Of a DNA stretch of 24,238 nt, positions 1,189-24,181 are shown piece after piece; position 1 is the first letter of the stretch; each line of letters begins with the position of its first letter. The notes beneath the pieces were generated by a model, which was not told the origin of the DNA, did no database searches, and saw nothing but the letters and a program-made list of their open reading frames with translations. Made by a program: the position numbers and the translations under genes. The stretch comes from a virus. Location: positions 1 through 24,238 of the IMG/VR virus record IMGVR_UViG_3300025132_000290. The stretch is one strand, 5' to 3'.

Positions 1189-1215
1189 CCTCCTAATAAA
1201 GAGACAAAGTGTCCC
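1189..1215 (-). promoter_or_regulatory. Regulatory element B: GGGACAC-N10-TATTAGGAGG
   Basis: On the minus strand GGGACAC (1215-1209) is followed after 10 nt by TATTAGGAGG (1198-1189), which also serves as ribosome site for the 54-aa gene. GGGACA can fold back on TGTCTC through a CTT loop into a 6-bp stem with one G-T pair. It is one of five in-register copies in the window and the only one with a 10-nt spacer. Confidence 0.55.
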
Positions 1216-1216
1216 A

Positions 1217-1972
1217 TCAAAGAAACATTCGGCTCCAAGTGTGCTTACCAACCACCCCATCAGGCTTCAGCCCAACAGAACGCTGATACGCCTTCACACC
1301 ATCAACCGTCATACGCCCGTAAACACCGTCCACAGGCCCACATTCAAACCCCAACCCATTCAAATGGCGCTGCACAAGCCTGACAGCCTGCCCACGGCTA
1401 CGACGCCGCCGAGACAACGGCTTCAGAGCCACTTTCCTGCCCAAAGCGTCAATGTAGTTACGCAGAGCAACCCAATCAATCTCAGGGCTGCTGTCCTGCT
1501 TCAGCTCCATACCGCTCTGCATCCAGTGATACAACGTCGTGCCAGGACACGACGTTGACGCCAAATCCCGATGACCCTTCACCCAGAGCCGATTGCCATA
1601 CTGACTCTGAATACTAGAAATAAGGCCAGCAATAGAATCCAATGCACGTTCAGGGACTTCACCCGAACCCCATCCTGTGTAGCAAATTGATATGGTTTGA
1701 GAGTTCCAGCCCCGAGTAGCGCCACCAACAGCGCCACGGCCACGACCCTCGTAAACAACGCCGTCAGCGTCAACCAGCCAGTTGTATGCAATGCCACGCC
1801 AACCACGCACCCGCATATGGTACTGCTCAAAGCTCTTGATCTGAGCAGGCCCAGGCTGAGCCTTCCTCACACCCGAATGATGCAGCACAATGCCGTTTGT
1901 GCGGCGACGCACCGTGAACGGTTTCTGGGGTGGTGTAGCGTTCCATCCCGAACGATTAATAACGGTTCTCAT
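1217..1972 (-). CDS. Endolysin: N-acetylmuramoyl-L-alanine amidase with PG-binding domain
   Basis: A zinc amidase (PGRP / Amidase_2 fold) that cleaves the bond between muramic acid and L-Ala of peptidoglycan. Of 251 residues, about 20-155 form the catalytic domain. Visible landmarks are GIVLHHSG (H31 likely ligand), IAYNWLVD (Y63, the conserved tyrosine), EGRG, WVKGHRD (H134) and TSCPGT (C142), giving the H-H-C zinc triad. Residues about 195-249 match the PG_binding_1 repeat: AVRLVQRHLNGLGF, VDGVYGRMTVDGVKAYQ, LKPDGVVGKHTW. There is no signal peptide, so export needs a holin. I chose ATG 1972 because TAGGAG, overlapping the stop of the upstream giant gene, lies just before it; the longer frame overlaps that gene. 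The catalytic domain being N-terminal and the binding domain C-terminal is the usual modular arrangement. Confidence 0.93.
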   Translation of the reverse strand: MRTVINRSGWNATPPQKPFTVRRRTNGIVLHHSGVRKAQPGPAQIKSFEQYHMRVRGWRGIAYNWLVDADGVVYEGRGRGAVGGATRGWNSQTISICYTGWGSGEVPERALDSIAGLISSIQSQYGNRLWVKGHRDLASTSCPGTTLYHWMQSGMELKQDSSPEIDWVALRNYIDALGRKVALKPLSRRRRSRGQAVRLVQRHLNGLGFECGPVDGVYGRMTVDGVKAYQRSVGLKPDGVVGKHTWSRMFL

Positions 1973-1979
1973 ATCACTC

Positions 1980-4900
1980 CTATCCGAACGCCAAGGCACG
2001 ACGGTTACGCATGTCTTCGCTATCACGATACTGCTGACGCAGGATCTCGTTGCGCTTTTCCTTAGGAGTGTTAACTCGCAAGCCAATACCAGCCGTAATA
2101 CTCAACAACGTACCGACCTGCTTAGCAGCGTCAGACTGCCGCCATTCAGGAATGTCTGCAGGCCGCAGTCGTGACCACTGAGCAAACGTCGGGATCAACT
2201 GTTCGACCTGATACCGCTGACGGTCAGTCATCATCCACTCGCCGCTACGTCCACGTTCACCCATGCCAGCCAACTGCAACGCTTGGCTGATAATCGGCAT
2301 CTGTGCCCACTCAGGCGCTTCTTCGTAAGTGTCTCGGAATGGCACCTGATTGAACGTCTTCGTGTCCATCAAGCTTTCGATCGGGTACTTGTAGAACGGC
2401 AACGCCGACTCAATAACTGGCCTGCCCAAGTTTAAGGCCCGATCAAGGGGGCTAGCGCCTTCAGGAATATTGTCAGCGTCCAGCCCCTTAGCCCAGTTTG
2501 CCAAGTCAGTAAACGGCAACTGCGGCAGAGCGTAGCTGCGGTAACCGCCAATGTTGAACGGCAATCGAATACCCATGTTCTCACCGAAGTAGTCAGGCAC
2601 GATGCCTTCAGCTTCGGACTGCAACTCGGTGTTTGCCTTGAGCTGCGTCACACGGTTCCACGCCGTTGGGTTCGTGCCAATCGACTCTACCAACACAGGA
2701 ACGATGCGGCGCTGCCAGGTGTAGAACGGAATGAACTGCTTTGTTTGCTGCTCAAACCCAGTCAGGTCGCTGTAATCAAAGTGGTACTTCATTACCTGAG
2801 TAGCGGCGTCTTCCAAAGACCCGCCACCCATAGCAACATGGTGAGCCAAACTGCCACGAGCCATGAACTCAACGTCGCTGTTCCAGCCACGGACAGCAGT
2901 GAACCACTTGAAGTCAGAGGTCGGCTTCAAAGAACCAGCTCTCAAGCCCGAGAAGAATCCCTGGCCTTCGATAATGTTGCCTGGACGGTCCATCTGGGTC
3001 ACAATGTCGATACCGCGACCACCCGTACCCGACGCCATACCCGTCGAATACCACGACTGGAACGTCTCCAGCTCCCTAGCACTAACAGTCTTGCCACCAG
3101 CAAGCGCACTGCCAGGACCAGTCAGCTTGATGCCCTGACCGCTGTCAACCAAAATCTGCAAACCAGCAGCAATGTTGCCTTCCTGCTTCGCTGCCTTTGC
3201 AGCAGCCGCAGCTTGATCTCGAATCAGCTTCACCCGCACCATCGCAGAAAGCGGCACACCAGCAAGCTGATTGTTCATCCAAGCAGCACCAATCAGGTTT
3301 CGCATAACGAAACCAGGCGTACCCACCGCACCAGCCTTCCACCAGTTAGCAATCCTGTTGACCCTCTTCGCCCACGCACTCAACTGAACAGGATCAGTCG
3401 TACGCGCCACCGCCTCAAACATCTCGCTAAACTCACGAGCCATTTGTGCGGCCAGCTCACGGCTCACAGGCTGAGTCGAACCCACACCAGCAACAGGAGC
3501 AACAAACGAGAACCGCTCCAGCTTCGACTTTGTCAAGTTAGAAACAGTCGGTGAGAAGAAGTCGCTGTTGACGTTGCGATAGCTGTACAACAACTGATCG
3601 CCCATGAACTGCTCAAAGCCCTCCATGTATGCGTCAACAAACGCAGCGTTACCCTGCCCGCTAGCGACAGCCCGCAGCGCAGCCTCAGGGCTGTCAGCAA
3701 TCTCCAACGACGCCCGCACCACACCCTGGAAATCATTCTTAGGCTGAGGCAAATCCCCGTTAATAACCCGTCGTGCTAAATCGTCCTTACGCATATTGGC
3801 GTCAGCCAACGCTGCAGCAATCAACCCCCGCCGATGACCAATGTCGTTGACATTACGACCAATCTTGATCAACTCTTCCACCGTGGCCTGGTTCTGGGCG
3901 TCAATCATAGCCTTGGCGTCGCCAATAGATTCCTGCAAGAACTGACGGGTTTTCGCAGGCTGACGTACCAAACCAGCACCCATGCGCCGATCCAACATCG
4001 CAGTCAAAGCCACTTCGTAATCAGACTGCCCCTCACGAGCAACCAAGAACGACAAAGCATCCAGATCGTCCAACGACTGCTCTACCTGCGACAACAAAGC
4101 GTTGTCGCCAACAATGTTCGGCAAACGGTTCTGCAACATGCGGATGTTCTCAATCGACTCCAACAGAGCAGCCTGAGCCTGACCAGCAGGAGAGTTATCC
4201 AACTGCCTCAACACTTCAAACAACGCATCCGAACGCTCTTCGCCCATAAACGTACGCAGCGTTGTACGGCGACCCTGCCCCGACAAAGGCTGACCGTTCC
4301 AACGAACTTCCCAACCCCTGTTCGGACCCTGATACTTGAACTGCACCAGCTTGCCGTTAGCAGGCAAATCGCCGTACGTCCGAGCTACACCAAACAGCGT
4401 CTCAGCCGTAGCGCCTGCCGCCAACGCCGTTTCGGCCAGTTCGTCTTGCGTCTTGCGAAGCAGATCAGGATCAGCCAGCCGCTGCAAGCCACGGCCTGCC
4501 AACAGCGTCGGATCGAACGCTTTCAAATTGTCACCGATAGTTGCGGACAAGAACTCCAACGATTTCTGCAGCGAAGCCAACTCACGGCCAAGCTCAGCAA
4601 ACGTCCTCTCAATGGTCTGCGGGCGACGCATCGCCCCAGACTCCAACTGCTTCAACGCCGCAGCAAGCTGGTTGCGCTGCGTCTGCAACTTGCCCAACAC
4701 CACCGCCATCTCATGCACATACTCAGTGGCATCCGCAATCGCAGCCAGTCGGGCATCAGTGCTGCTCTGGATTTTCGCCAGAGCATTACGCTCCGTCTTC
4801 GTCAGAACACCGCTCTCCCCGACATCACGAAACCCGTGCTGCCGCAGCAACAACTTCGCCTCGTCAGACAGGCCCGAATAGAACTGGCCGTTGACGCTGG

Positions 4901-7346
4901 CGTTTAGAATCTCAGACATCAAACCAGACTGATACTCCAACTGTGCAAACTCGCCAGCAATCTGCCCCTCAGCAGTCTTCAACCAGTCGCCAAGCTGTTC
5001 AGGAGGAACCCGTGCATCTCCAGCTACCTGCGCCAAAATGTTGGCGATCTCATCAGTGTCAGCATCAGCCCCTCGCCCGATGATTAGCTGACGAGCAGCC
5101 TCAAACTTGTCGTCTAGATCGTCAACCACCGATGTCAGATTGTCGATGTCTCTAACAACCGCTCCCCGAACAAACCGAGAGTTCGGAAGAAGCAAACCCG
5201 CTTCTACAGCCTGACCAAGCACCGACCGAGAACGAATACCAGCAGTCATCAACGCCACATAACGAGGCAACACCGCTGCAGCATCATCAGTGAACTTAAA
5301 CGAATCAAAGTCAGCACCCTGCCTACGGGCGATGTCGTCCATCTGCGTCAAGAAAGAACCCGCATCGTCAACGTCTTTCAACGCCTCCTCTGCGTAAATG
5401 TTCGTCATCACGTTCGACTTCTTGTCGCCGTAACGAACACCCTCTTCAAGCTCTGCCCGCACCGCCCGTTCGAACTGTTCTTGGAACTCGTCCGAAGCAC
5501 GAGAAACATCGTCGCCCAACTCCGCTGCAACCTTGTTTTCAATACGGCTAATATCGTCCGCAAACGGCTTTGCCTCGTTCGGGATTGCAGTTGGCCTGCC
5601 TCTTGAATTAGTGGGGCTTGTCAGAATCCCATTGCGGTACCTGTTCATCCGCTCAACAATGATCTTCGGCTCAAGAAGATGACGACCCTGGTTAGGGTTG
5701 CCCGACAACACAATGCCAAAGCCATCCTCGTCAAACGCCGTCAAAGAAGACTCAGTCCTGCGACCAGCCCTAATGTCGTCACGCATACGGGCTGCGTACA
5801 GCAGATCCTCAAGCTCACCGTCTTGAGTGAAACCAGCCCGTTCGCCCGCCGACCGCCACCAATCCTTAGCTTTCTGCACCATCGGATCAAGCTGACCATC
5901 AGGACCAACAAAGCGAGAAAACGCTGGGTTCGCCAGAAGCTGATCGTTCGGAGTCGTAGCAACCTCAAACATCAACTCGTTAAGATCATCAGGCTCAAAC
6001 CTACTGGCCTTGAAATCCCGAACAAGCTGATCCAACTCGTCCATCGTCTTCTTGTTCCACAGACCCGCATCAATGTTCGCCGTACGCCCGATACGCTCCA
6101 CCGTGCGCGCCACATACGCAATGTTCGCGTCCTCGCCACGCTTCGCAGCATTGATCGAAGCCTGCGAGTTAAACCTGCTAGACAACCCGCCGCTCGCACG
6201 ACCTGTCGCCTGATCAACCTTGCCCGCATACCAAGAAGCCTGCGCTACTCGCTTACTGCCAGTGCCAAACGGAGACGCCAGCAACCCCAACGCCCTCGCC
6301 GTAACCTCAGAAGTCCGCTCGCCTGTCAGCAACTTCGACTGGACAGGCATACGCCCCGCCATTTGTGCAGCGATCTCAATCGCCTCGTCACCAACCTCTT
6401 CCCCCATCTGACGGGCAGTAATCAACGCCTGAGTCTCGGCATCAGCCAGATTAAGGGGACGACGAATCGCAGTATTGGCGTCAACTGCAAACTGCGGAAG
6501 TTGACTCGTGCGCCGTGCAGCAGTTCGTGCCTGGTACGTCTTAGAGATCGCCCCTAACGGGCGATCAATAAACGCACGCCCCAAACGGCCCGTGCCAGGG
6601 CGAGAGAACCGCAAACCAATGTCCACGCCCAACTCACGCAACAACTGCGGCTCACGTCCAGCAGCCATCAACACGCCACCAGCAGGGTTCTGACGGATCG
6701 TTTCAGAAACGTTCCTCAACCTCGCAGCCTTACCAGCATCACCCGCAGCCTCAGCCACACGAGCAGCGTCCAAAGCCGTATCGACAAGCTGTGTGCCGCC
6801 TCGCAACCCACGCAAAGCAACACCAGCACCAAACGCATACGTCAACGGATCCAACGCAATATCAAGACCCAACCCGACCACAAAATCCAACGGGCCTGGA
6901 AGATCAACGTTCCAATCCCGCAACACTTCCTGAGCGCTAATGTGGTCACGGGTCTGCGACCACCACTGCGACAACGACGCATCGCCATCGCCAAAGATGT
7001 CGCCAACCTCTTGAACCGTAGAAACAAGCGCCGCACGAGGCGTGTCCAACACGTCAAGTATTGGACCCAGAACAGGAATGTCAAAGATCGAATTACGACC
7101 TGCCTCCGCTTCGGGCGGCTGGAACACAGGCAGCACATTGCGAGGCGCAGGCTGAGCTAGCTGCCCTGCCCGTTCCAACGCCTCCAAATACGCCGCACGT
7201 CCAGACCCCATCCCTGTCGGCAACTGAAACGTCTGCGGTTCAACAGCCTGAGCAATCGGCACAGGCAGGTTAGAGTAATCCAACCCTTCGAACAACGACG
7301 TAGTGTCAACTGGTTTTAAAGAATTGACAATGTCCTTACGATCCAT
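1980..7346 (-). CDS. Giant internal virion / DNA-ejection-type protein (1788 aa)
   Basis: The largest gene of the window. The start is ATG 7346 (MDRKDIVNS), one base after the upstream stop; an upstream TTG in frame is less likely. A hydrophobic N-terminal part (about residues 90-180) has FDIPVLGPILDVLDTPRAAL and LDIALDPLTYAFGAGVAL. A long helical, Gln/Ala/Asp-rich middle follows, and then a conserved-looking block at about 1520-1550, FDYSDLTGFEQ...IPFYTWQRRIVP, which I recall from large structural proteins of marine and actinobacterial phages. I see no lytic transglycosylase, peptidase or polymerase motif. Its position after two other presumed internal proteins and before the lysin, in a phage lacking a tape measure, fits an ejection protein that crosses the envelope with the DNA. 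This function is inferred from context and size. Confidence 0.75.
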   Translation of the reverse strand: MDRKDIVNSLKPVDTTSLFEGLDYSNLPVPIAQAVEPQTFQLPTGMGSGRAAYLEALERAGQLAQPAPRNVLPVFQPPEAEAGRNSIFDIPVLGPILDVLDTPRAALVSTVQEVGDIFGDGDASLSQWWSQTRDHISAQEVLRDWNVDLPGPLDFVVGLGLDIALDPLTYAFGAGVALRGLRGGTQLVDTALDAARVAEAAGDAGKAARLRNVSETIRQNPAGGVLMAAGREPQLLRELGVDIGLRFSRPGTGRLGRAFIDRPLGAISKTYQARTAARRTSQLPQFAVDANTAIRRPLNLADAETQALITARQMGEEVGDEAIEIAAQMAGRMPVQSKLLTGERTSEVTARALGLLASPFGTGSKRVAQASWYAGKVDQATGRASGGLSSRFNSQASINAAKRGEDANIAYVARTVERIGRTANIDAGLWNKKTMDELDQLVRDFKASRFEPDDLNELMFEVATTPNDQLLANPAFSRFVGPDGQLDPMVQKAKDWWRSAGERAGFTQDGELEDLLYAARMRDDIRAGRRTESSLTAFDEDGFGIVLSGNPNQGRHLLEPKIIVERMNRYRNGILTSPTNSRGRPTAIPNEAKPFADDISRIENKVAAELGDDVSRASDEFQEQFERAVRAELEEGVRYGDKKSNVMTNIYAEEALKDVDDAGSFLTQMDDIARRQGADFDSFKFTDDAAAVLPRYVALMTAGIRSRSVLGQAVEAGLLLPNSRFVRGAVVRDIDNLTSVVDDLDDKFEAARQLIIGRGADADTDEIANILAQVAGDARVPPEQLGDWLKTAEGQIAGEFAQLEYQSGLMSEILNASVNGQFYSGLSDEAKLLLRQHGFRDVGESGVLTKTERNALAKIQSSTDARLAAIADATEYVHEMAVVLGKLQTQRNQLAAALKQLESGAMRRPQTIERTFAELGRELASLQKSLEFLSATIGDNLKAFDPTLLAGRGLQRLADPDLLRKTQDELAETALAAGATAETLFGVARTYGDLPANGKLVQFKYQGPNRGWEVRWNGQPLSGQGRRTTLRTFMGEERSDALFEVLRQLDNSPAGQAQAALLESIENIRMLQNRLPNIVGDNALLSQVEQSLDDLDALSFLVAREGQSDYEVALTAMLDRRMGAGLVRQPAKTRQFLQESIGDAKAMIDAQNQATVEELIKIGRNVNDIGHRRGLIAAALADANMRKDDLARRVINGDLPQPKNDFQGVVRASLEIADSPEAALRAVASGQGNAAFVDAYMEGFEQFMGDQLLYSYRNVNSDFFSPTVSNLTKSKLERFSFVAPVAGVGSTQPVSRELAAQMAREFSEMFEAVARTTDPVQLSAWAKRVNRIANWWKAGAVGTPGFVMRNLIGAAWMNNQLAGVPLSAMVRVKLIRDQAAAAAKAAKQEGNIAAGLQILVDSGQGIKLTGPGSALAGGKTVSARELETFQSWYSTGMASGTGGRGIDIVTQMDRPGNIIEGQGFFSGLRAGSLKPTSDFKWFTAVRGWNSDVEFMARGSLAHHVAMGGGSLEDAATQVMKYHFDYSDLTGFEQQTKQFIPFYTWQRRIVPVLVESIGTNPTAWNRVTQLKANTELQSEAEGIVPDYFGENMGIRLPFNIGGYRSYALPQLPFTDLANWAKGLDADNIPEGASPLDRALNLGRPVIESALPFYKYPIESLMDTKTFNQVPFRDTYEEAPEWAQMPIISQALQLAGMGERGRSGEWMMTDRQRYQVEQLIPTFAQWSRLRPADIPEWRQSDAAKQVGTLLSITAGIGLRVNTPKEKRNEILRQQYRDSEDMRNRRALAFG

Positions 7347-7347
7347 G

Positions 7348-8907
7348 TCACCCCGTTGCCCCAACCTGCGCCATCAGGATCTGTTCGATGTACGGCGCAA
7401 GATCAGCTTGCTGTTCAGGCCCAGCCTTCGAATAAACATCCAAGAAATCGCCCAGCTCCATGCCCCCAGGCAGCACCATGCCGCCACTTGGACCGCTCAA
7501 CGAAGCACCAACCTGATCCCGCCGAATGTCTGCATCAAGATTCGCAGCGATCAGCTCCAAAGCCTGATCTTGATCAATGTACCCCGATGAAATGTCAAGG
7601 AACGCATCGCCGAGACCAGCCTCAGTAATCGCATACAACGCATCAGCACTAATCTCGTCACCAAACTGGTAACCCTGCAAAGCGCCCAACGCCGCAGCAC
7701 CAACCTGCAACTTGCGCTGTTCTTCAGCCTCTTTCTCTGCCCGACGTGCAGCCGCCGCAGCAGCAGCCTGCGCTGCCTGCGCCGTCTGAACGTTCAACGA
7801 AGTCAAACCAGCGTCGTACTGCTGCTCCGCAGTTCGTTCCTGATCAGCAATAGCTTGCAACGCCATAGCGTCATCAATCAGACCCTGCTGACGAGCCTGG
7901 TTGATCGTCTGCAACGACGCAGCCAAATCCTGACCAATGCCAAACAACGCTTGCGCCGTAGCCTGATCATTCGCATCAGACGCAAACTGGGCAGCGCTCT
8001 GCGAAATCGCATCCATCTGGTTAACAAAGTTGGCCGACGACATGCTCTGCGAATACAGCATCGCAGTCGTCTCGTTTGTTTCCCGATCAGCAAACTGACC
8101 AGGGTCAATACCCAACGATTCCAGACGTGCAGTAGCAGCGTTAGTATCAACACCAGTCGCACGCAACGCCTCATCAAGCTGAGTACGTTGACGAGCCAAC
8201 TCGTCGCTCTTGCGAGTTTCTCGCTCAAGAGCGCGCTGCTGCTCTTTCTCTTGACGAGTAGCGTTCTGCTCATCCAAGAACGTCTCACGGGCACTAGCAG
8301 TGTCCTGAGCAAACTGCTCCTGACCAGCAATGCCTTGCTCACGCAAATCAGCAAGCTGCTCTACCAGATCTCGCTGCTGCCCAAAGCCTTCTTTCTGAGA
8401 AGCGAGTAGGCGGTCTAGCCCACCTTTCTGCAAGTCGTAGATCGACGGGCCACGAGGAGTGCGAGGTCCAGTAGGCTTATCGTCATCACCTTCGTAAAGA
8501 GGACCGTCGGGTTGTCGCATTCGATCACGAGGATCAATAGCAGACTGCCCCCCAGTTCTCGGAGGCAAACGCCCGTCAGTACGGGGATCAACAGCCGACT
8601 GACCGCCCTGAGGCAGGCCCAGCATGTCTTGCGTGTATTGCGTGGGCCGAAGAGCAGCCTGGGGGTCGTAATTCGCCCTGCCCTGTCTAAGGGCATCCTC
8701 GTAACGAGTTAGCTGATCTCGCCGATCCCGTCGGGTGCTTCCCATAGCAAAGAACGGTTGAGAATCACTAATTGTCTGTTGAAACTCTGTGTCATCAGCC
8801 GCAGGACCAAGCCGCATGTCGACTAGCGCCTGTTGGGCGGCAGTTTCTTCCCGAGCCTTTCGGTCTTGTTCTGCCTGCCGTGCAATATCCAAAGAACTAA
8901 CCATCAT
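7348..8907 (-). CDS. Internal virion-type coiled-coil protein (519 aa)
   Basis: A Gln/Ala-rich, mostly helical protein without a signal peptide. Residues 1-75 are charged helix. Residues 80-155 are low-complexity and carry a repeated GGQSA(V/I)DPR at about 101 and 119. Residues 160-250 and 340-405 are strong coiled-coil candidates (QEKEQQRALERETRKSDELA; an Ala run at about 376-387 followed by RRAEKEAEEQRK). The C-terminal 110 residues look globular. The ATG at 8907 overlaps the upstream stop (ATGA) and is followed directly by a second ATG. Together with the genes on both sides it forms a three-gene set like the ejection-protein cassette of podoviruses. Function is inferred from composition and context only. 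Confidence 0.7.
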   Translation of the reverse strand: MMVSSLDIARQAEQDRKAREETAAQQALVDMRLGPAADDTEFQQTISDSQPFFAMGSTRRDRRDQLTRYEDALRQGRANYDPQAALRPTQYTQDMLGLPQGGQSAVDPRTDGRLPPRTGGQSAIDPRDRMRQPDGPLYEGDDDKPTGPRTPRGPSIYDLQKGGLDRLLASQKEGFGQQRDLVEQLADLREQGIAGQEQFAQDTASARETFLDEQNATRQEKEQQRALERETRKSDELARQRTQLDEALRATGVDTNAATARLESLGIDPGQFADRETNETTAMLYSQSMSSANFVNQMDAISQSAAQFASDANDQATAQALFGIGQDLAASLQTINQARQQGLIDDAMALQAIADQERTAEQQYDAGLTSLNVQTAQAAQAAAAAAARRAEKEAEEQRKLQVGAAALGALQGYQFGDEISADALYAITEAGLGDAFLDISSGYIDQDQALELIAANLDADIRRDQVGASLSGPSGGMVLPGGMELGDFLDVYSKAGPEQQADLAPYIEQILMAQVGATG

Positions 8908-9359
8908 GCACTCCGCATCTGGCTGCCGTACAAGCTCGCCACAAGGTTCTGATAATCAGCAGAAGACAACTGGTCCCGCAAACCAGCCAAATCAGCAATA
9001 TCCAACGTGTCCTGCAACCGTGAACCCGCCACCTGCTGGTTAAAGTCCTCACGCAAACGGTTTCGCATCCGCAACTCGTTCGCAGCCATCTCACGACCGC
9101 CACGGATGTACGAACCGCTATCCAACATCCCTCGGCGGTTAAACGCCCCAGGAAGCTGCCGAAACGCCTGATTAGCCTGACGGCCAATATCGCTTTGAGC
9201 ACGAGTGTAATCGCGACCCATCTGGTCACGATTAAACTGGCGTTGAGCCAAGTTGCGTTGAACGTTCAGACTCGCCTGGTTGTACTCGTTCGCAGAGTTG
9301 GGAGCAGTTTTGCTCATCGACGACGACAAAATGTCTTGATAATTAGATACGTATGCCAT
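8904..9359 (-). CDS. Small internal virion / tail-associated protein (151 aa)
   Basis: A hydrophilic helical protein rich in Arg, Gln and Asn. The central segment (about residues 50-100: QSDIGRQANQAFRQLPGAFN, then RRGMLDSGSY and a following R-rich helix) matches a pattern I associate with small structural proteins that precede the internal virion proteins in marine phages. The ATG at 9359 is preceded by TAGGAG whose flanks form a short hairpin. The stop overlaps the next gene (ATGA). It is the first gene of the unit headed by element D, so it probably works together with the 519- and 1788-aa proteins. No enzyme motif is visible, and the exact place in the particle cannot be read from the sequence. 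Confidence 0.7.
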   Translation of the reverse strand: MAYVSNYQDILSSSMSKTAPNSANEYNQASLNVQRNLAQRQFNRDQMGRDYTRAQSDIGRQANQAFRQLPGAFNRRGMLDSGSYIRGGREMAANELRMRNRLREDFNQQVAGSRLQDTLDIADLAGLRDQLSSADYQNLVASLYGSQMRSA

Positions 9360-9360
9360 G

Positions 9361-9376
9361 TGAAGCTCCTACTTCA
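9361..9376 (-). promoter_or_regulatory. Ribosome site displayed in a hairpin loop
   Basis: On the minus strand TGAAG and CTTCA form a 5-bp stem around a TAGGAG loop, directly upstream of the 151-aa gene's ATG at 9359. The ribosome site would be exposed in the loop. The stem is short, so folding in the cell is uncertain. Confidence 0.35.
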
Positions 9377-9392
9377 TGGCAAGGAATGTCCC
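9365..9392 (-). promoter_or_regulatory. Regulatory element D: GGGACAT-N11-AAGTAGGAGC
   Basis: GGGACAT (9392-9386) begins two bases after the upstream stop (TAG T GGGACAT) and is followed after 11 nt by a TAGGAG block in the same register as the other copies. It heads the ejection/lysin unit. With the element at 18500 it shares an extended 26-nt stretch, 22 positions identical (9386-9411). Confidence 0.55.
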
Positions 9393-9543: not shown

Positions 9544-9719
9544 GACACTGATCCTAATACAGCAAAGCGACTGAACAGCCACGCACTGATGTAAATACCG
9601 ATCACGCAGTATCCGAGCACATACGCCATGCCTCGGTTGTCAAGCAAAGCTTTGTCGGTGGAGTTGACGAGGTGAAAGAAGCCAGCGGTTACGCCGAGCA
9701 GAATGATGTGGTTAGGCAT
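9540..9719 (-). CDS. Small membrane protein (59 aa), possible lysis accessory
   Basis: A short ORF found by reading: ATG 9719, TGA 9542-9540. It starts MPNHIILLGVTAGFFHLV and has two likely membrane segments, about residues 4-18 and 31-50 (MAYVLGYCVIGIYISAWLF), with a polar stretch NSTDKALLDNRG between. The start overlaps the end of the big fibre gene by 8 bp, and the stop overlaps the 49-aa gene (ATGA), so the reading frame is locked into the operon. Two short membrane segments and a phage tail/lysis context would fit a holin, antiholin or similar protein, but no sequence signature confirms it. Confidence 0.6.
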   Translation of the reverse strand: MPNHIILLGVTAGFFHLVNSTDKALLDNRGMAYVLGYCVIGIYISAWLFSRFAVLGSVS

Positions 9720-16378: not shown

Positions 16379-16381
16379 GGA

Positions 16382-16633: not shown

Positions 16634-16651
16634 AAAACCTCTTTAACAGCA

Positions 16652-16676
16652 GGGGAGGAGCCGTGTGCTCCTCCCC
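16652..16676 (-). terminator. Stable hairpin downstream of the capsid gene
   Basis: GGGGAGGAGC and GCTCCTCCCC form a perfect 10-bp stem with a 5-nt loop, 13 nt after the capsid stop and before the Cys/His gene. No U-tract follows (TGCTGTTAAAG), so full termination is unlikely. Partial termination or protection of the abundant capsid mRNA 3' end is more plausible. Confidence 0.6.
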
Positions 16677-16689
16677 CAACTGTCATCTA

Positions 16690-17715
16690 TCAGGCGTCAA
16701 GGACGTTGTCCAAGAAGCCCTGACGGGCACGGTTGCTAATGGTAAGCTGCCCGTAGCACAGGATCTGCGAGAACACAGAGTCCTGATTGGTGGGCCGCAC
16801 AAACGGGGTCGGCTTGAACCAAACGTCCGAGTGAGCGACGAGCTGGATGTACTTGGTGTTCAGCATGTACACACGGCCAGAACCAGAGTGGTTCGACTGG
16901 TCGGTACCAGCGGGGCAGTCGTCATCAAACACGACAGGAGCGCCCTTGAACATAAGGTTCTGGAAGCCCGAGTTTGCCATGTCAGTGTCGGTGTAACGGA
17001 CGTTGCTGGTAAGCAGCGCCTCGTACGCCTCGTAACCCTGCTGGCTGGTCATGATGATGGTCGGCTGATCGTTACCCACCGAAACGGTGTTGTACAGCGT
17101 ACCCATAGCCGCAAGCGACAGGTTGCCGCTGTTGGTCGTGTGGTCCGTGACGGTCGAACGCCACCAAGCGTTGTCCGAGTCCGACGAGTCAATGCCGCCG
17201 ATGGTACGAAGACGGGTTTGAGCAGCACCGTTGGAGTTGGTGACAGCGCCATCTTGCACGAGGTTGCCGATGCCGTTCCAGTCCTTCTGGGTGTTGCCTT
17301 CGCCGTTGCTGAACAACATGGCGTTCATGTTGCTGATCACAGTTTCCTGCGCCTGGAAGATCTTGCCTTCCAGCAGGTCAATGATCTGCTCTTCGCCGTT
17401 GTTCTTGGCTTCTTCGATACCGCTGATGGTAACGGTCACCGCATACTGACCCCAGTCGTATTCGGCGGCGGTCATGCCGTCCGAAGCCGTGGTCGAAATG
17501 GTGTCGGTGCCCGAGTACGAAGCGGCAGTACCGTTGGTCTTGCCAAGGACAGGAACAACAATCTTGGCACCGCCACCAATTCGACGCATGGTCTGACCAT
17601 TGGTCAGTGCGTAGAACAGCGGACGAGCCGAGAAAATGTTGTCGGTAAGCCGAGGGACATAGTTTTTCAGCGTCGTTGAGAGAATCTCATCGAAGCTAGA
17701 GTTGCCGAAAGCCAT
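16690..17715 (-). CDS. Major capsid protein, HK97-fold type
   Basis: A 341-aa protein starting MAFGNSSFDEILSTTLKNYV. Landmarks of a common capsid family are TMRRIGGGAKIVVPVL, then KTNGTAASYSGTDTI with WGQYAVTVTISGIEEAKNNG, and EEQIIDLLEGKIFQAQETVI with NMNAMLFSNG, covering the N-arm, E-loop and spine helix of the HK97 fold. The C-terminal half has the P-domain-like IIMTSQQGYEAYEALLTSNV and APVVFDDDCPAG. No protease cleavage site or separate protease gene is evident. AAGGAG precedes the ATG. It follows the scaffold gene by 17 nt, and a hairpin lies after its stop. The order portal, scaffold, capsid is classical. I am confident of the assignment; the family name is from memory. Confidence 0.92.
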   Translation of the reverse strand: MAFGNSSFDEILSTTLKNYVPRLTDNIFSARPLFYALTNGQTMRRIGGGAKIVVPVLGKTNGTAASYSGTDTISTTASDGMTAAEYDWGQYAVTVTISGIEEAKNNGEEQIIDLLEGKIFQAQETVISNMNAMLFSNGEGNTQKDWNGIGNLVQDGAVTNSNGAAQTRLRTIGGIDSSDSDNAWWRSTVTDHTTNSGNLSLAAMGTLYNTVSVGNDQPTIIMTSQQGYEAYEALLTSNVRYTDTDMANSGFQNLMFKGAPVVFDDDCPAGTDQSNHSGSGRVYMLNTKYIQLVAHSDVWFKPTPFVRPTNQDSVFSQILCYGQLTISNRARQGFLDNVLDA

Positions 17716-17732
17716 GATGGCTCCTTAGTGAA

Positions 17733-18446
17733 TCAAGTGGTCATTTGCTTTTTTGCAAGAGCAAAGGCTTCACGCAAAGAAGTCACCTTGGTATCCGAAA
17801 CTTCAGGCTGGGTTCCCGCCTGGGTTGACCCGCCAGGAGCCACTACTGACGCATCCCGCTTCTTGTCCGTAATGTCCTGATCTTGCCGCAGCTTGTCTGC
17901 GGTGGACTTCACGTCGTTGAATTGCCAATGCGTGTACGCCGCTTCAAGATTCGTAATCTTGTTCGTTACGGCGTGGTGTAGAAGATCCTGTTTGTCGAAG
18001 TCTCCGTACCGTTCCTTCAGTTGATCTACTTCTTTGTCTACTTGCTGGAGACGGGCAGCTCGCTCCTGCGCTTCGATCTTGCGCTCAAGCTCAGCCAACT
18101 TCTTGTCAGAAGGGTCCATTTCGTCCCAGCCAGACTCTTCAGTCTGTCCAGAACTCATGTTGATACCAAATGTCTGAGCCAAAGTGCCAAGAGTCCCCTC
18201 TGGATCATTTTCCAGAGCAGACACGATTGCTTCGGCTTGCTGCAAACGTTCCCGTTCGCTGGCTACCTCTTGCGTCTTGCGGGTATAATCCGCTTGCCGT
18301 TGGTAACCTTTTTGAAGCTCATCAAGGGTGACCTGTTGTTCTTCACCGTCAATCTTGACGGTGTAGCTAGGTTCCTCACTTGCTTCGGTTGAAACTTCCG
18401 AGGTATCCACGGACGTGGGTTCAGTTGCTTCGGTTTCTTCGGACAC
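17733..18446 (-). CDS. Capsid scaffolding protein (237 aa)
   Basis: An acidic, helical protein. The N-terminus is a Glu/Thr/Ser-rich disordered tail, then a short beta part YTVKIDGEEQQVTLDELQKG. Next comes YQRQADYTRKTQEVASERER, a motif often seen in phage scaffold proteins, and a coiled coil (KLAELERKIEAQERAARLQQ onward). The C-terminus SLREAFALAKKQMTT is basic and amphipathic, as in scaffolds that bind the capsid protein by their end. It starts with GTG at 18446, supported by AGGAGG six bases upstream. It lies between portal and capsid genes, the expected place, and element E precedes it. Confidence 0.88.
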   Translation of the reverse strand: MSEETEATEPTSVDTSEVSTEASEEPSYTVKIDGEEQQVTLDELQKGYQRQADYTRKTQEVASERERLQQAEAIVSALENDPEGTLGTLAQTFGINMSSGQTEESGWDEMDPSDKKLAELERKIEAQERAARLQQVDKEVDQLKERYGDFDKQDLLHHAVTNKITNLEAAYTHWQFNDVKSTADKLRQDQDITDKKRDASVVAPGGSTQAGTQPEVSDTKVTSLREAFALAKKQMTT

Positions 18447-18480
18447 TATGATCCTCCTAAGGAATCTTCGAAAAGGTGTT

Positions 18481-18506
18481 CCTAAGATTAATGTGAACTA
18501 TGTCCC
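18481..18506 (-). promoter_or_regulatory. Regulatory element E: GGGACAT-N11-TTAGGA block
   Basis: GGGACAT (18506-18500) begins two bases after the portal stop (TAG) and is followed after 11 nt by ATCTTAGGAA (18488-18479), in register with the other copies. Here the TAGG block is not the ribosome site; that lies about 25 nt further (AGGAGG at 18457-18452). An ordinary sigma-70-like pair overlaps it: TTGTAG, 17 nt, TAATCT (18513 to 18485). It would drive scaffold and capsid expression. Confidence 0.55.
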
Positions 18507-18507
18507 A

Positions 18508-20391
18508 CTACAAGGACGGTAGCTCCATGCCCATCTGCCCTTGAAGCTGCGCTAGCAGTTCGGGAGGCACCCCTCCAGTCGGAGCAAACGCTCCTTCTGG
18601 GGCTTGAGGGATTGGTGCGCCGCCCATTCCAGGCGGCATTGGCGCTCCCTGCGGGGGCACTGGACCGCCACCAGGCTCTTGGCCTGGTTGCGGCTGCGGT
18701 GCTTGTCCCATAAGGAACTTCTCGGGATCTTTGACCCCGAAACCATCTTCAAGAACGTGCCGTGCCAAAGCAGCAGGGTCAATAACCGTGCCAACCAACG
18801 GCGCAACAGCGTTCAACAACGAAACAGCTTGCTGACGACGAATCGTGTCGTTCATCGGCTGGGTAGAACCAGCCTGCACAACAAAGTCGTACTCGCCAAC
18901 AATTTCTTCACGACCATACGGAATAAACAAGTCTTCGCCACGCGCATCAGCAACTCGTGCCATCGCTTCACCAGTCATAAACTGCTGAAGAATCTGCACA
19001 ACACGCCTCGCTACCTGAGCGATACTGATCTCAATGATCGCTAGTTTGTCTGCCGCACGAGCGTTAGCGGCGTCAGCAATAATCGACGCTTCCGTTGCAG
19101 TGCGTCGAATCTCAGGCATAGCACCACGGGCATACTCAGAAACGCCTGATACCGTGTTGATGTCGTTTGCGATGATGTTGGAGTAGTTGTAGATCTCTGC
19201 CGACAGCGGAACCTGCGGCAACGGCATCACAACCTGATCCAACGGCTTGTTCTCATCAATAACAGGCACAAAGCGTCCGTCGTCTTCGGACTCCAACGCT
19301 TCACGGCCTGCAGGACCAAACGACCGTTCGTGATACAAATACTTGCGTGCGTATCGTTTACGATCGTTCATCAACTGGCTACGAGTCTTGTCCAACTCTA
19401 GCTGCAACGGTTCGATCGCTTCTAGATCACCCATCGGATAGAAGTGGTCGGGGATGTCGTAGTTGCGGAGCATGACGAACGGATGCCCGTATGCGTACGG
19501 CATTGCGACTGGGTCAACCAAAAACTCGTCCGCACCCTCGGCATACACGGACAACGTGTTGTCCATAATGTCGTAGTATTCCCACAAGACGACTTGGTCT
19601 TCCAAATACTGAACTTTGTCGTCGTTAGGGTTCTCATTGTAAATGTCGGTGCCGTAGTTCATTACCAGCTTTTTGCGAGCTGATGGCTTGTAACGTCGAT
19701 CTTTTTCTACTTCTTCAAGTGGCCGCACAATCCGTTGTGCGATCCAACGTGCGTCTTCCATGCAGGTAGCTGCAGGATCAACGTAAACATCAAAGACACT
19801 GATTCGTTCTACGAACGGCTGATCTTCAACGATTCGCATTTCTGTTGAGGGAATGCTGGCAACGATGTCGTCAAACGATGGCGGTTCAACGCCATCCATG
19901 AAACTTTCGACAGCAATCTGGTCGATCTCGTTCATGGCCGAGTCGATCATTTCTTCTCGGGCAAGTTCCCCGATGCTTTGTTCTTGCTCTACGAACTTCC
20001 ATCCCACTTTGAGCCAGCCATGTCCAAAGACCAGAAAGTCTTTGACGGCCCGACGGAACGGGGTGCGGTAGTCGTGATGTTTCCACAGGTGGTTGACCAC
20101 GGCTTCTACGAACATGGCCCGTTTGGCGTCTTCAGGCTTGTTGGCTTGGACGACAACCTTGGGATAGTTGACGGCTACGGAAGGCGCAATGACGTTGATT
20201 GTTGAAAACGCAAGGTTTACAGCGATTAGATCGCCGCTGTCTTGCATGTATTCAGGGAAGTGCTGTCCACGGTAAAGATCTGACAGGCGCAGCCAGTTGT
20301 CGTCAAACTGTTCGTCTTGACGCCAACGCTGGCACTTGTCGATCTTGTCCTTGTACTGTTCCAACCTGTCACGGCGCGACTTCCGAGCCAT
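18508..20391 (-). CDS. Portal protein (627 aa)
   Basis: The dodecameric ring at the special vertex through which DNA enters and leaves. The N-terminus is basic (MARKSRRDRLEQYKDKID), then LYRGQHFPEYMQDSGDLIAV and INVIAPSVAVNYPKV. The helical core shows FRRAVKDFLVFGHGWLKVGW, RISVFDVYVDPAATCMEDAR and the stem/crown-type segment NDINTVSGVSEYARGAMPEI with TATEASIIADAANARAADKL, all typical of portals of short-tailed and related phages. The C-terminus is a Pro/Gly/Gln-rich tail from about 555 that is likely disordered. The length fits. The ATG lies one base after the preceding stop. It is followed by scaffold and capsid genes, which supports the call. Confidence 0.92.
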   Translation of the reverse strand: MARKSRRDRLEQYKDKIDKCQRWRQDEQFDDNWLRLSDLYRGQHFPEYMQDSGDLIAVNLAFSTINVIAPSVAVNYPKVVVQANKPEDAKRAMFVEAVVNHLWKHHDYRTPFRRAVKDFLVFGHGWLKVGWKFVEQEQSIGELAREEMIDSAMNEIDQIAVESFMDGVEPPSFDDIVASIPSTEMRIVEDQPFVERISVFDVYVDPAATCMEDARWIAQRIVRPLEEVEKDRRYKPSARKKLVMNYGTDIYNENPNDDKVQYLEDQVVLWEYYDIMDNTLSVYAEGADEFLVDPVAMPYAYGHPFVMLRNYDIPDHFYPMGDLEAIEPLQLELDKTRSQLMNDRKRYARKYLYHERSFGPAGREALESEDDGRFVPVIDENKPLDQVVMPLPQVPLSAEIYNYSNIIANDINTVSGVSEYARGAMPEIRRTATEASIIADAANARAADKLAIIEISIAQVARRVVQILQQFMTGEAMARVADARGEDLFIPYGREEIVGEYDFVVQAGSTQPMNDTIRRQQAVSLLNAVAPLVGTVIDPAALARHVLEDGFGVKDPEKFLMGQAPQPQPGQEPGGGPVPPQGAPMPPGMGGAPIPQAPEGAFAPTGGVPPELLAQLQGQMGMELPSL

Positions 20392-20392
20392 G

Positions 20393-20650
20393 TCAAACCC
20401 TCTCTATGTTGCGCCCCTGAGACTGGGCTTCTGCAACCACTTTGGTTTCACGCTCACGGTTTGTGAGGTGTTGCTCGTCAGTAGGAAGCATTGCCCGAAA
20501 GCCACGTCCAGTTGACACCTGCAAAGAGTTCAACCGCACCCAACGCTCGTAAATCTCGTCAAGCTCAGACTTGGAGATGGCTTCGCCCTTCTCCCGTCGC
20601 ATATGTTCGCAAAACTCGTCATACGACAAGTTCTTCGGGATAATCGCCAT
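20393..20650 (-). CDS. Small hypothetical protein upstream of portal (85 aa)
   Basis: It starts MAIIPKNLSYDEFCEHMRRE two bases after the stop of the 91-aa gene and ends one base before the portal ATG, so it is translated in a tight chain. It is mostly helical and charged (SKSELDEIYERWVRLNSLQV), with no membrane segment, signal or catalytic motif. The C-terminal part (RERETKVVAEAQSQGRNIER) may be a coiled coil. I do not recognise it. Position just before the portal is often used by small head-assembly or packaging-related proteins in phages of this kind. Confidence 0.7.
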   Translation of the reverse strand: MAIIPKNLSYDEFCEHMRREKGEAISKSELDEIYERWVRLNSLQVSTGRGFRAMLPTDEQHLTNRERETKVVAEAQSQGRNIERV

Positions 20651-20652
20651 TA

Positions 20653-20928
20653 TCAGGCGTCGCTACCAGCAGCGTTGAAGGAAGCAGCGCGCTCGACAGA
20701 ACCAGTCGTGCCATGCTGCTGTTCAGGGGTGTTGCGAGGAGCAACGCCCTCGCCACGGTCGCCAGTAACGCCAGCATACTTGGGGTCAGCGGTGCGGTAA
20801 GTAGCACGATTCGGGCTGCCAGCAGCGTCACCAATCGGGTTGGTAACGACAGACTTGCCACGAGCCATCGTGTTGTTGCCACCACCAACATCGGTAGTGC
20901 CATTCGTGTGCGAAACAAACTTAGCCAT
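20653..20928 (-). CDS. Gly/Thr/Asn-rich hypothetical protein (91 aa)
   Basis: It starts MAKFVSHTNGTTDVGGGNNT. The whole protein is polar, rich in Gly, Thr, Asn and Ala, with almost no hydrophobic core, so it may be largely disordered or fold only on a partner. AGGAGT lies upstream of ATG 20928. It is the first ORF of the unit headed by element C, between the terminase nuclease ORF and the portal module. A minor head or decoration protein is possible. There is no family I can name. Confidence 0.65.
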   Translation of the reverse strand: MAKFVSHTNGTTDVGGGNNTMARGKSVVTNPIGDAAGSPNRATYRTADPKYAGVTGDRGEGVAPRNTPEQQHGTTGSVERAASFNAAGSDA

Positions 20929-20948
20929 GAGTATTACTCCTAAAGGTA

Positions 20949-20973
20949 CCTAATAGATAGATGTGCGTGTCCC
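20949..20973 (-). promoter_or_regulatory. Regulatory element C: GGGACAC-N11-TATTAGG
   Basis: GGGACAC (20973-20967) and TATTAGG (20955-20949) with an 11-nt spacer straddle the end of the terminase nuclease ORF; the TAG of TATTAGG is its stop codon. The ribosome site for the next gene is separate (AGGAGT near 20940). GTGCGT and ACGCAC flank GGGAC as a 6-bp stem (20963-20979), placing the conserved core in a loop. Confidence 0.5.
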
Positions 20974-21633
20974 ACGCACATTTCGTGCCCCGATTTGGTT
21001 GTTGTTCCTAACGGGAGCATCTGTTGCAAGACGGGCAAACCAGTCGACCGTCCAATAATCGTCGTTATCTTGAACATACTCGGGTTCATGAGCGTACTTA
21101 CGCATTTGGTTAGCAAGCGCTAACGCCATTACACGGTCATCGTAGGGAGATCCCGACATGCCGCCTCGTTCGTTGCGGACAAACGTCCGCAACTCAGCCA
21201 ACGTATGACGGTCATAGATCGTTAGCTCAAAATTTCGCAGCGCAGACGACAGCTCGTCAATCATCAACGGCTTTGACGTTCTTGTAGTCTTCCAACCAAA
21301 CTCTTGCCCCACCGTATTTGTCACACTGTTAAGCTGGCGACGGCGGTACAACTTGGGATACCCCAAGTGTCGCAACTCGGTAATCGTTGTGAGGCCGTGG
21401 TTGTTGGACTCTACGCAGCACAAAGCAGCGTTGTACCACAACCCCACCGCATAGACTTCTTCAGCTAGCAAGTCGGGTGCAATGTGGCCGTGCCAGATAG
21501 CGCTTTGCTCTCCAGTGCCGACATCTAGCACTTGAATCACGCTGTAGTCGCCGTGACCAAGGCCCTCAGCCGTGTCTACGCCCAAAACGTAGGCGTGATG
21601 CAACTCTGGGTACTGCCAAACCTCAAAACTCAT
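20950..21633 (-). CDS. terL: Terminase large subunit, nuclease part (separate ORF)
   Basis: A 227-aa RNase H-fold nuclease that cuts the DNA concatemer at packaging. Landmarks are YVLGVDTAEGLGHGDYSV (first catalytic Asp, D20), CCVESNNHG (E75) and YDDRVMALALANQM (D165/D166), the acid triad of terminase nuclease domains. In most phages this domain is the C-terminal half of one 450-600-aa protein; here it starts with its own ATG in a different frame, overlapping the ATPase ORF by ATGA. The first residues (FEVWQYPELHHAYVLG) match the normal linker-to-nuclease transition, so no domain is missing. Either two subunits assemble, a frameshift joins them, or the assembly has an indel. The C-terminus is a basic tail. 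Confidence 0.88.
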   Translation of the reverse strand: MSFEVWQYPELHHAYVLGVDTAEGLGHGDYSVIQVLDVGTGEQSAIWHGHIAPDLLAEEVYAVGLWYNAALCCVESNNHGLTTITELRHLGYPKLYRRRQLNSVTNTVGQEFGWKTTRTSKPLMIDELSSALRNFELTIYDRHTLAELRTFVRNERGGMSGSPYDDRVMALALANQMRKYAHEPEYVQDNDDYWTVDWFARLATDAPVRNNNQIGARNVRGTRTSIY

Positions 21634-22520
21634 GCGACTCTAAACTCCACAACGTCGTTATGGCGCCACATATCGCCCTTGTCGCCGTACCGCACCTGCG
21701 TTTCCAACTGGTCTAGCACATCCAAGTCAAAAACGGGGTTACCTGACTTTACAAACGCCTCTTCAGGCGTTGACGGGTACTCCTGAGCCAACTGCCACGG
21801 CAACATTGACTCACGTTTGTCCTGATACCACGCATCTCCACGGTCTTCAGTCGCAGACCACGGAAAAAACATAGGCGCAAACTTGTTTGTGCCAGCCGTC
21901 GCACCCACCCAAAGCTGATGATAGAAGTTGCCTGACCCGTTTGCGGTCGACAGACCGATGATTCGGCCACCAATATCGGCCACAGGCTCAATCGACGCCC
22001 ACGCATCCTCGGGATTCGGCAAGAACGCCCACTCATCCACCACAATAAGCGACGCAGACTCGCCACGGGCAGGATCAGACGCCGACGGCATTGACGTAAT
22101 CTGCGAACCATTGTCAAAAGCCATGCGCTGCTGGTGCTCAACCAGCGAGCGAGGCCCCCGCTCCAACATCCAGTCAGGCAAATGCTTCTGCCCGTACTTT
22201 GTTTTCTTCAGCAACAACACCGATTCACGCTCTGTACGAGACAAATCAATGATGTTCTGATCCGAATGGAAGTACGCTAGCCAGAACTGATGTGCCGCAA
22301 CCAGCGTAGACCATCCGATCTGGCGGGCTTTCAACGTCAGACTGTACCGTTCGTTCTTCCACTCTTTAAGAGCAAACTTCTGAGCGTCACGCAACTCAAA
22401 CAGCACACGGCCCTTCGCAGGATGAGCAATATTCCAGTACGTCTCTAGGAAATACTGCTCGTCCTTAACGCACCGACGCCACTCAGCCTCACGTTTCAGC
22501 TCAGAAAACGAATACGCCAC
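21630..22520 (-). CDS. terL: Terminase large subunit, ATPase part (separate ORF)
   Basis: The 296-aa motor ATPase that translocates DNA into the head. Visible motifs are a deviant Walker A KARQIGWST (residues 64-72; the lysine sits at the front, as in lambda-type terminases, with W70 where many P-loops have Lys), Walker B LIVVDEWAF (D162, catalytic E163) and the coupling motif GLSTANG (189-195). The end (WQLAQEYPSTPEEAFVKSGN, then PVFDLDVLDQL) is the normal boundary before the nuclease domain, after which a TGA stops the frame. The start is GTG 22520, sharing its G with the upstream stop (TAGTG). The nuclease follows in the next ORF. The upstream HNH-like and small terminase genes fit a packaging module. 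Confidence 0.9.
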   Translation of the reverse strand: MAYSFSELKREAEWRRCVKDEQYFLETYWNIAHPAKGRVLFELRDAQKFALKEWKNERYSLTLKARQIGWSTLVAAHQFWLAYFHSDQNIIDLSRTERESVLLLKKTKYGQKHLPDWMLERGPRSLVEHQQRMAFDNGSQITSMPSASDPARGESASLIVVDEWAFLPNPEDAWASIEPVADIGGRIIGLSTANGSGNFYHQLWVGATAGTNKFAPMFFPWSATEDRGDAWYQDKRESMLPWQLAQEYPSTPEEAFVKSGNPVFDLDVLDQLETQVRYGDKGDMWRHNDVVEFRVA

Positions 22521-23554: not shown

Positions 23555-23709
23555 TGGCACGACTCACAAGACTCAGGGTTCTCCAAATCACACGACGCCT
23601 CAATTACCTCATCAGCGTCGTCACCCCAATCAATATCCATAGCGCCCCGCTCACCCAGCAACTCGCCGTTCTCATGAAGCTCCATCAACGTCTTCGGATC
23701 AACTCGCAT
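23551..23709 (-). CDS. Tiny acidic protein with Cys-rich end (52 aa)
   Basis: A short ORF found by reading, ATG 23709 to TGA 23553-23551. It begins MRVDPKTLMELHENGELLGE, continues with an acidic stretch DIDWGDDADEVIEA and ends SCDLENPESCESCQ, with C-x8-C-x2-C. Its start overlaps the small terminase stop region by 11 bp, and its stop overlaps the next ATG (ATGA), which locks it into the operon. The opposite charge to its basic neighbours is notable; it might bind one of them or a metal ion. There is no known family. Confidence 0.6.
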   Translation of the reverse strand: MRVDPKTLMELHENGELLGERGAMDIDWGDDADEVIEASCDLENPESCESCQ

Positions 23710-24145
23710 CCAAACCCTCCATCAACTGCGCCAACTCAGCAGACAACTCCGCATCCGACAATCCAACCACATCACGCTCATCATCCACAACCAAACGACG
23801 CTTCGGCGTAAACTTCTCAATGTACTGCAAATACAAAGACGCAGCCTTCACGTCGCCCGCAACTGCCGCACGATGCAACGCATCCACAACTCCCTGAGTC
23901 CGCTCAGGGTGGACGTTTAGCTCAGCCGCCCTACGGTCCCACTCACGAATAAACCGAGGATCAGCCTTCCACCGACGCACCGTACGATCGTTGTAGCCAT
24001 TCTCCTCAGCCCACGCCACCGACGTAGCAGGCACACGAGACTCATCCAACAACCAATCCAGATACCGTGCCCAATCATCAGGCATACGTAACTGGCCGGT
24101 GTCTGGATCTGTTACCCAGCCTTTACCGCCTCCGTTTTGTGGCAT
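23699..24145 (-). CDS. terS: Terminase small subunit (148 aa)
   Basis: The DNA-recognition partner of the packaging motor. Residues about 38-64 form a helix-turn-helix (TSVAWAEENGYNDRTVRRWK, then ADPRF), as in phBC6A51-like small terminases. The segment VVDALHRAAVAGDVKAASLY, then LQYIEKFTPKRR, is the typical oligomerisation/linker part (A..GD.KAA.LYL.Y..KFTP). The acidic C-terminus (LSDAELSAELAQLMEGLDAS) may contact the large subunit. AGGAGGT lies seven bases upstream of ATG 24145. It is the first gene of the minus-strand block and is preceded by element A and a palindrome, so it probably starts the late transcription unit. Confidence 0.85.
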   Translation of the reverse strand: MPQNGGGKGWVTDPDTGQLRMPDDWARYLDWLLDESRVPATSVAWAEENGYNDRTVRRWKADPRFIREWDRRAAELNVHPERTQGVVDALHRAAVAGDVKAASLYLQYIEKFTPKRRLVVDDERDVVGLSDAELSAELAQLMEGLDAS

Positions 24146-24153
24146 AGTTGTTA

Positions 24154-24181
24154 CCTCCTAATAGGTAAGTTTTTGTGTCCC
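24154..24181 (-). promoter_or_regulatory. Regulatory element A: GGGACAC-N11-TATTAGGAGG
   Basis: GGGACAC (24181-24175), 11 nt, then TATTAGGAGG (24163-24154), the ribosome site of the small terminase gene. The best match to the shared pattern together with element B. GGGACAC is also the 3' arm of a 7-bp inverted repeat. Confidence 0.6.

Follow-up and report, generated by a model that had tools for sequence, protein, structure and literature searches.

A two-block element at late-gene boundaries and a sigma region 4-like protein: a predicted late-gene switch in uncultured phages

The stretch of DNA analysed here (the window) is a virus fragment of 24,238 bp from IMG/VR (record IMGVR_UViG_3300025132_000290), and contains the late arm of a tailed phage whose portal is of the P22/SU10 type. 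Its minus strand holds five copies of a short two-block element, GGGACA followed at a constrained distance by TAGG, at the boundaries of late units, and an early-facing copy lies head to head with the first (Table 1). We argue that this element is probably a phage-specific late promoter, read through a factor resembling region 4 of sigma-70 that acts on host RNA polymerase.

Distribution and anatomy of the element

All five minus-strand sites listed in a preliminary description of this DNA were found again at their reported places. The pattern GGGACAY-N8-14-TAGG matches four times in the window, against 0.15 matches expected from shuffled sequence, and the fifth site, at 18506, needs one extra base of spacing to fit. 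GGGACA alone is not enriched (9 copies found, 11.8 expected); what stands out is its placement, five of the seven minus-strand copies lying in gaps between genes (binomial P ~1e-7, the lengths of the gaps being hand-counted). Fifty non-redundant sites of relatives were used for a two-block matrix, with the window's record and its nearest relatives excluded and some members of its clade kept; this matrix ranks the five sites first to fifth in the window, at 14.5-25.8 bits against a best score of 11.8 in 20 first-order shuffles. The strictly fixed spacing described earlier has to be relaxed: the distance from GGGACA to TAG is 15 nucleotides (nt) at 24181, 20973 and 9392, 16 at 18506 and 14 at 1215, so that at 18506 the TAGG is shifted by one base from its claimed register. 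The element at 20973 falls within the last codons of the terminase nuclease gene. The sole gap of at least 20 nt that lacks the element (16634-16689, after the capsid gene) has instead a strong G+C hairpin (16652-16676), possibly a terminator or attenuator.

Table 1. Features of the window, with their positions, strands and supporting scores or matches.
Feature	Position	Strand	Score or match
Element 1, upstream of terS: GGGACAC-N14-TAGG, continuing into terS ribosome site TAGGAGG	24157..24181	-	19.6 bits; homologous site in relatives
Element 2, across stop codon of terminase nuclease gene: GGGACAC-N14-TAGG	20949..20973	-	14.5 bits; ~70 copies in relatives
Element 3, just past portal stop codon: GGGACAT-N15-TAGG	18481..18506	-	22.7 bits
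Element 4, upstream of ejection/virion gene: GGGACAT-N14-TAGG	9368..9392	-	25.8 bits, top match
Element 5, between endolysin gene and 54-amino-acid open reading frame (ORF): GGGACAC-N13-TAGG	1192..1215	-	23.8 bits
Divergent early-facing copy GGGACACTACATCTATTACTGTAT, head to head with element 1	24194..24217	+	9.5 bits, rank 6
Covarying RNA hairpin in scaffold leader, AGGAA-C-ACC-loop-GA-TTCCT; AGG of the TAGG block forms the 5' arm	18460..18483	-	
C-terminal 61 codons of putative late regulator (sigma-70 region 4-like), gene cut by window edge; helix-turn-helix GLSMRFVALALGTPKTTFARRRDAL	1..186	+	
terS-like gene (small terminase, helix-turn-helix)	23699..24145	-	PF13022 2.7e-7; phrog_24579 terminase small subunit 1e-3
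Large terminase, split: ATPase 21630-22520 and nuclease 20950-21633, ATGA overlap	20950..22520	-	
Portal gene, SU10/P22-type	18508..20391	-	PF23899 1.7e-25
Scaffold gene, first gene downstream of element 3	17733..18446	-	phrog_3927 7e-18
Major capsid gene	16690..17715	-	phrog_9953 1e-65
Ejection/virion gene downstream of element 4	8904..9359	-	
Endolysin gene (Amidase_2 and PG_binding_1), directly upstream of element 5	1217..2086	-	
54-amino-acid ORF downstream of element 5	1017..1181	-	

A portal search in viral contigs gave 198 relatives, of which 80 loci were kept. The pattern is enriched in these portal loci as well, with 64 late-strand matches to GGGACAY-N8-14-TAGG, two on the opposite strand and three to the reversed form. 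Around the putative regulator gene (see below), GGGACR-N13-16-TAGG has 53 late-strand matches and none on the opposite strand, with 22 for the reversed control. In 78/78 printed portal/scaffold gaps of related loci, GGGACA follows the portal stop by a few bases at most. In full contigs it also stands far ahead of the other hexamers of its composition in the fraction of its copies that lie just before a start (50/163; class mean 6.5%). These observations already contradict the view that there is no single element, GGGACA being residual coding or stop-codon context and TAGGAGG a plain Shine-Dalgarno sequence. Several sites do overlap gene ends, and TAGGAGG is the ribosome site at three of the five window sites, but the terS and lysis sites lie outside coding sequence and TAG keeps its distance at sites with a separate ribosome site; we give this view next to no credence.

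Two relatives with direct terminal repeats, G005 (38,001 bp) and G009 (39,739 bp), are probably complete genomes. Both have sites before terS, at the terminase end, between portal and scaffold, before the ejection-type gene and after the endolysin region, the same five boundaries as in the window, and no sites were found in their early arms; G009 has one additional pattern match, at 32651. Many relatives also have a head-to-head, early-facing GGGACA upstream of terS, at variable separation and often with the same TAG spacing. In the window this copy is not significant alone, its score being exceeded in 1 of 20 shuffles. There is no nearby ORF start behind it, which favours a signal in DNA. Head-to-head pairs of this kind, and short asymmetric sites that lie at the ends of operons and point along the direction of transcription like the stoperators of mycobacteriophage L5 (PMC3203893), would also suit operators at which the region 4-like or another phage protein represses or roadblocks late transcription early on, the promoters themselves being ordinary host ones. 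Late operons have only about one site each and the early arm has none, the second block lies at a constrained distance, and no consistent host-type promoter stands beside the sites, all of which makes this rather improbable.

Just past the early-facing GGGACA, several relatives (G005 ~4530-4590, G009 ~30800-30840, G010 ~42370-42440, L053) have a long perfect hairpin without a T run, its loop CCCCA or CCTCA and its stems unrelated in sequence; many contigs, this window included, end near it. The early-facing leader also contains a conserved ATATCTATACATA (G005 ~4755-4770, G009, G010, L053), a candidate early promoter or origin.

The element is distributed over a large group of uncultured, mostly marine phages. 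Among isolated phages no close relative was found for the portal (the best match, at 43%, is itself an uncultured record) and none for the regulator. One relative lies in a contig of the metagenome-assembled genome Acidimicrobiaceae bacterium TMED189, which also contains a regulator homologue; the host is possibly a member of the marine Acidimicrobiia, a weak, binning-dependent indication from this one relative.

Comparison of relatives refines the element to T-GGGAC(A/G)-N13-16-TAG(G/A). The left block has sharp boundaries, and the 13-16 nt that follow, each with ~0.5 bit or less in pooled left-aligned counts, become G-poor towards the end, before TAG(G/A). The claim that TAGG is more than a Shine-Dalgarno sequence stands at the terminase sites, where TAG peaks 14-16 nt past GGGACA and the ribosome site lies further downstream (16 counts, 16 unique sequences); at the portal site it stands only in part, as a conserved RNA hairpin contributes there. 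At the terS, lysis and ejection sites part of the conservation is that of the Shine-Dalgarno sequence. In relatives, terS retains AGGAGG even at copies in which another base replaces the T of TAG (CAGGAGG in G009, for example); with block 2 being the ribosome site, the transcript would be expected to start upstream of the block.

The portal hairpin has the design NNNNN-CAA-CY...RG-A-NNNNN across relatives, with a CAA/A internal loop and compensatory changes in its arms (AGGAG/CTCCT, AGGAA/TTCCT, AGAAG/CTTCT, GTGAG/CTCAC, TAGAG/CTCTA). Pairing is kept in 207 of 230 cases, against a maximum of 197 in 2000 shuffles that ignore relatedness; when the 14 distinct arm pairs alone are counted, 3 of 5000 shuffles attain the observed pairing, and folds of single sequences give the same shape. 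A hairpin of the same design occurs in MW202803, an uncultured syntenic outgroup (L191 ~5000-5030), the operon boundaries of which have no GGGACA. The hairpin is for this reason best regarded as a separate mRNA element, its 5' arm overlapping block 2, and possibly sets the ratio of portal to scaffold.

This bears on a further explanation, in which the whole element acts at the RNA level, GGGACA and the TAGG/ribosome-site block steering translation or processing from late mRNA leaders, a role that has been suggested for start-associated sequences. Block 2 does include the ribosome site at the terS, ejection and lysis sites, and the portal site continues into the covarying hairpin. We nevertheless consider an RNA-level role unlikely: no ORF follows the divergent copy, the terminase and portal sites have a ribosome site distinct from the block, MW202803 has the portal hairpin without GGGACA, and no pairing partner of GGGACA common to the five sites was found. 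A hairpin at the terminase site, ATGTGCGT-GGGAC-ACGCACAT, was rejected as a shared feature, being perfect in the window's clade but not in the others.

A candidate reader among the early genes

The last early gene of the relatives encodes a conserved sigma-70 region 4-like protein of 136-170 amino acids (aa). The long relatives that were read as far as the late/early junction have this gene: in G005 it lies at 17675-18094 (139 aa), and its position is the same in G001, G002, G004, G009, G010 and G012. Homologues were found in 71 viral loci, with distant ones in G008 and G016, where the helix-turn-helix is still recognisable and the genomes keep GGGACA. The translation of window positions 1-186 (+) is 71% identical to a homologue over 45 aa (E 3e-13); a close relative, G002, has the whole gene (20252-19797).

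The G005 protein matches phrog_1740 (RNA polymerase sigma factor, 3.6e-8), the similarity residing in its C-terminal half. Matches that could tie the regulator to named RinA or Ltr families are both weak: phrog_36, a transcriptional regulator (1.4e-4), and PRK06930, named for a positive control sigma-like factor (7e-4). Among NCBIfam models, homologues of the G005 protein weakly match sigma families and the positive control sigma-like factor; a Pfam search gave no match above the cut-off. In a single-chain AlphaFold model, the C-terminus forms a confident four-helix domain (pLDDT ~90 over residues 71-130). Foldseek matches to this model are almost all sigma factors, including region 4 domains of extracytoplasmic function (ECF) factors that read -35 DNA. 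The -35-binding domain of SigL is matched with a target template modelling (TM) score of 0.81-0.82 over 67-74 columns, and region 4 of SigmaE bound to -35 DNA with 0.72-0.75. Target-length TM scores of 0.7-0.8, with superposition on ECF -35-binding domains at a root-mean-square deviation of 1.3-1.9 A, support a region 4 fold for the predicted domain.

Directly upstream of this gene lies another, for a conserved protein of 152 aa (G005 17224-17682; G002 20272-20709).

The proposed late promoter and known systems

The preliminary description offered three readings of the element: transcripts of a phage polymerase starting at GGGACA, a short-spacer promoter read by a phage sigma-like factor, and a start-associated sequence. 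The second is the best supported, because the region 4-like protein is conserved, its C-terminus is encoded in the window, and the element occurs at all late operons and only there, apart from the divergent copy. In this reading, one element would stand at the head of each of the five late units, with the additional divergent copy directed from upstream of terS towards the early arm. GGGACA would be the recognition half, read by the small early protein with its C-terminal -35-binding domain, and the TAG block would fall in the -10/start region or close to it, merging with the ribosome site at the terS, lysis and ejection sites. The regulator would act on host RNA polymerase by -35-type recognition while host sigma or another subunit supplied the -10 function; use of host sigma or holoenzyme is argued from the lack of a region 2 in the regulator. 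It may alternatively be a late activator of region 4 form. The late promoters would be switched on once the early regulator protein had accumulated.

Several findings weigh against this proposal. No sigma region 2 is recognisable in the regulator, which is hence no complete sigma alone, and no region 2 protein was found in these phages; the adjacent 152-aa protein was rejected as the other half of a split sigma, its TPDY...LVEVMGMG...K motif being nuclease-like by eye and unlike region 2. The N-terminal third of the AlphaFold model is poor, and Foldseek E-values are weak (best 5e-3), as the domain is short. Canonical -35 geometry would place the start at the terS start codon; terS keeps AGGAGG, so that the start would have to lie upstream, unusually close to GGGACA. 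The sites also have no consistent -10 hexamer: candidates at a fixed offset are TAATCT-like at terminase sites, TATWAN-like at early-facing sites and inconsistent elsewhere. Clades of the L032/G008 type keep GGGACA and lack the TAG block. Lastly, gene and motif co-occur within one lineage and are hence not independent evidence.

The first reading fared less well. TATA-G stands right before the likely start at many sites, with the ribosome site adjoining, and TATAGG resembles the TATAGGG of T7, as might be expected of a promoter for a phage single-subunit RNA polymerase of T7 or N4 type. Such a promoter is nonetheless highly improbable. PF00940 matched 0 of 16 records in a search for which no positive control was registered, and no early ORF in G005 or G009 exceeds ~325 aa. 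A virion polymerase within the giant protein of 1794 aa was considered and rejected, family and motif searches finding neither a polymerase family match nor a catalytic motif in it. Most inter-block bases are unconserved, and the sites have no continuous promoter of ~20 bp up to the start, as in the T7 type. A transcript start at GGGACA was likewise rejected, there being no conserved promoter upstream of it.

Nor do the sites behave as start-associated sequences. Those of cluster K mycobacteriophages are 13 bp long (GGGATAGGAGCCC), number 11-19 copies, and occur in the non-structural half only, 3-7 bp before start codons (PMC3203893). They share with the element a short oriented repeat with AGGAG near gene starts, but differ in motif and position and lack the GGGACA-gap-TAG structure; the window sites lie in the structural half, two of the five ~40-55 nt upstream of a start.

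A precedent is phage 7-11, with eight bipartite late promoters, GTAAtg-(16)-aCTA, read by the phage sigma gp47, which contains a region 4 (PMC8948821). As proposed for the window's group, there are several bipartite promoters, one per late unit; early and late clusters are oppositely directed, and host core enzyme is used there with a phage sigma (PMC8948821). The two sets of sequences differ, and gp47 is a full sigma in vitro, whereas here a region 4-like domain alone is recognisable (PMC8948821). Like systems of the 7-11/phiEco32 kind, the group has a conserved motif of constrained spacing in front of its late operons, but without a complete phage-encoded sigma; a stand-alone sigma as in 7-11 would need a region 2, and none was found.

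In T4, phage proteins replace or mimic sigma region 4 on the host polymerase, as is proposed here, both in MotA-dependent sigma appropriation and in the gp33/gp55 split sigma (PMC2988021, PMC2988020). The MotA box and the -10 element are 12+/-1 bp apart (PMC2988021), a spacing close to the 12-13 nt from GGGACA to TATAG. In contrast to the regulator, MotA has a double-wing fold and requires AsiA, and T4 middle promoters have a good -10 element (TAtaaT) where no consistent hexamer is seen here (PMC2988021); gp33 mimics region 4 without sequence similarity to sigma (PMC2988020). Late regulators of the RinA/Ltr type in phages of Gram-positive bacteria (Ltr of Staphylococcus phi13, PMC13123087) differ in acting at one late promoter beside their own gene, via repeats upstream of a host-type promoter. 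Here there are five dispersed single-site promoters, as proposed, plus the divergent copy, and the early arm has the regulator gene at its far, convergent end; no target repeats accompany it at a single late promoter. A literature search of open-licence papers linking GGGACA with phage late promoters returned nothing relevant.

No regulator homologue was detected in a phage collection containing MW202803; the joint lack of the protein and of GGGACA at the boundaries in this outgroup is in keeping with the proposal. At apparently the same boundaries, this one genome has a different recurrent inverted repeat, CGTTTCTGA(C/T)GGAAACG, noted as CGTTTCTGANGGAAACG and variant forms at late gene boundaries (L191 ~605, 2822, 11990, 18600 and 19280). 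This suggests that late signals differ between lineages while their places stay fixed.

More tentatively, a region 4-only factor with a short N-terminal tail might re-target the host holoenzyme, with a -35-type box ~20 bp from the start beside TATAG, throughout an abundant group of uncultured phages, and MW202803, as a sister lineage, might then illustrate late-promoter specificity exchanged as a module; this fuller version is possible, though doubtful. If a region 4-only factor works as proposed, it would be a minimal way of re-targeting bacterial RNA polymerase without a full sigma. Site and regulator together make up a predicted late-gene switch for a large group of uncultured environmental phages without a studied isolate, and the site matrix can label transcription units straight from metagenomic contigs.

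Neighbouring genes

The fifth site had been thought to precede a holin module; the 54-aa ORF that follows it has no obvious membrane segment by eye, and no holin is evident there. An ORF of 171 aa at 134-649 (-), with a hydrophobic stretch near its N-terminus (by eye), is a better candidate. The protein encoded at 9712-12612 (-) is tail-fibre-like; it has collagen repeats and possibly a CBM_5_12 domain. The division of the large terminase into ATPase and nuclease genes with an ATGA overlap recurs in relatives, several of which have an ORF on the opposite strand near the ATPase gene.

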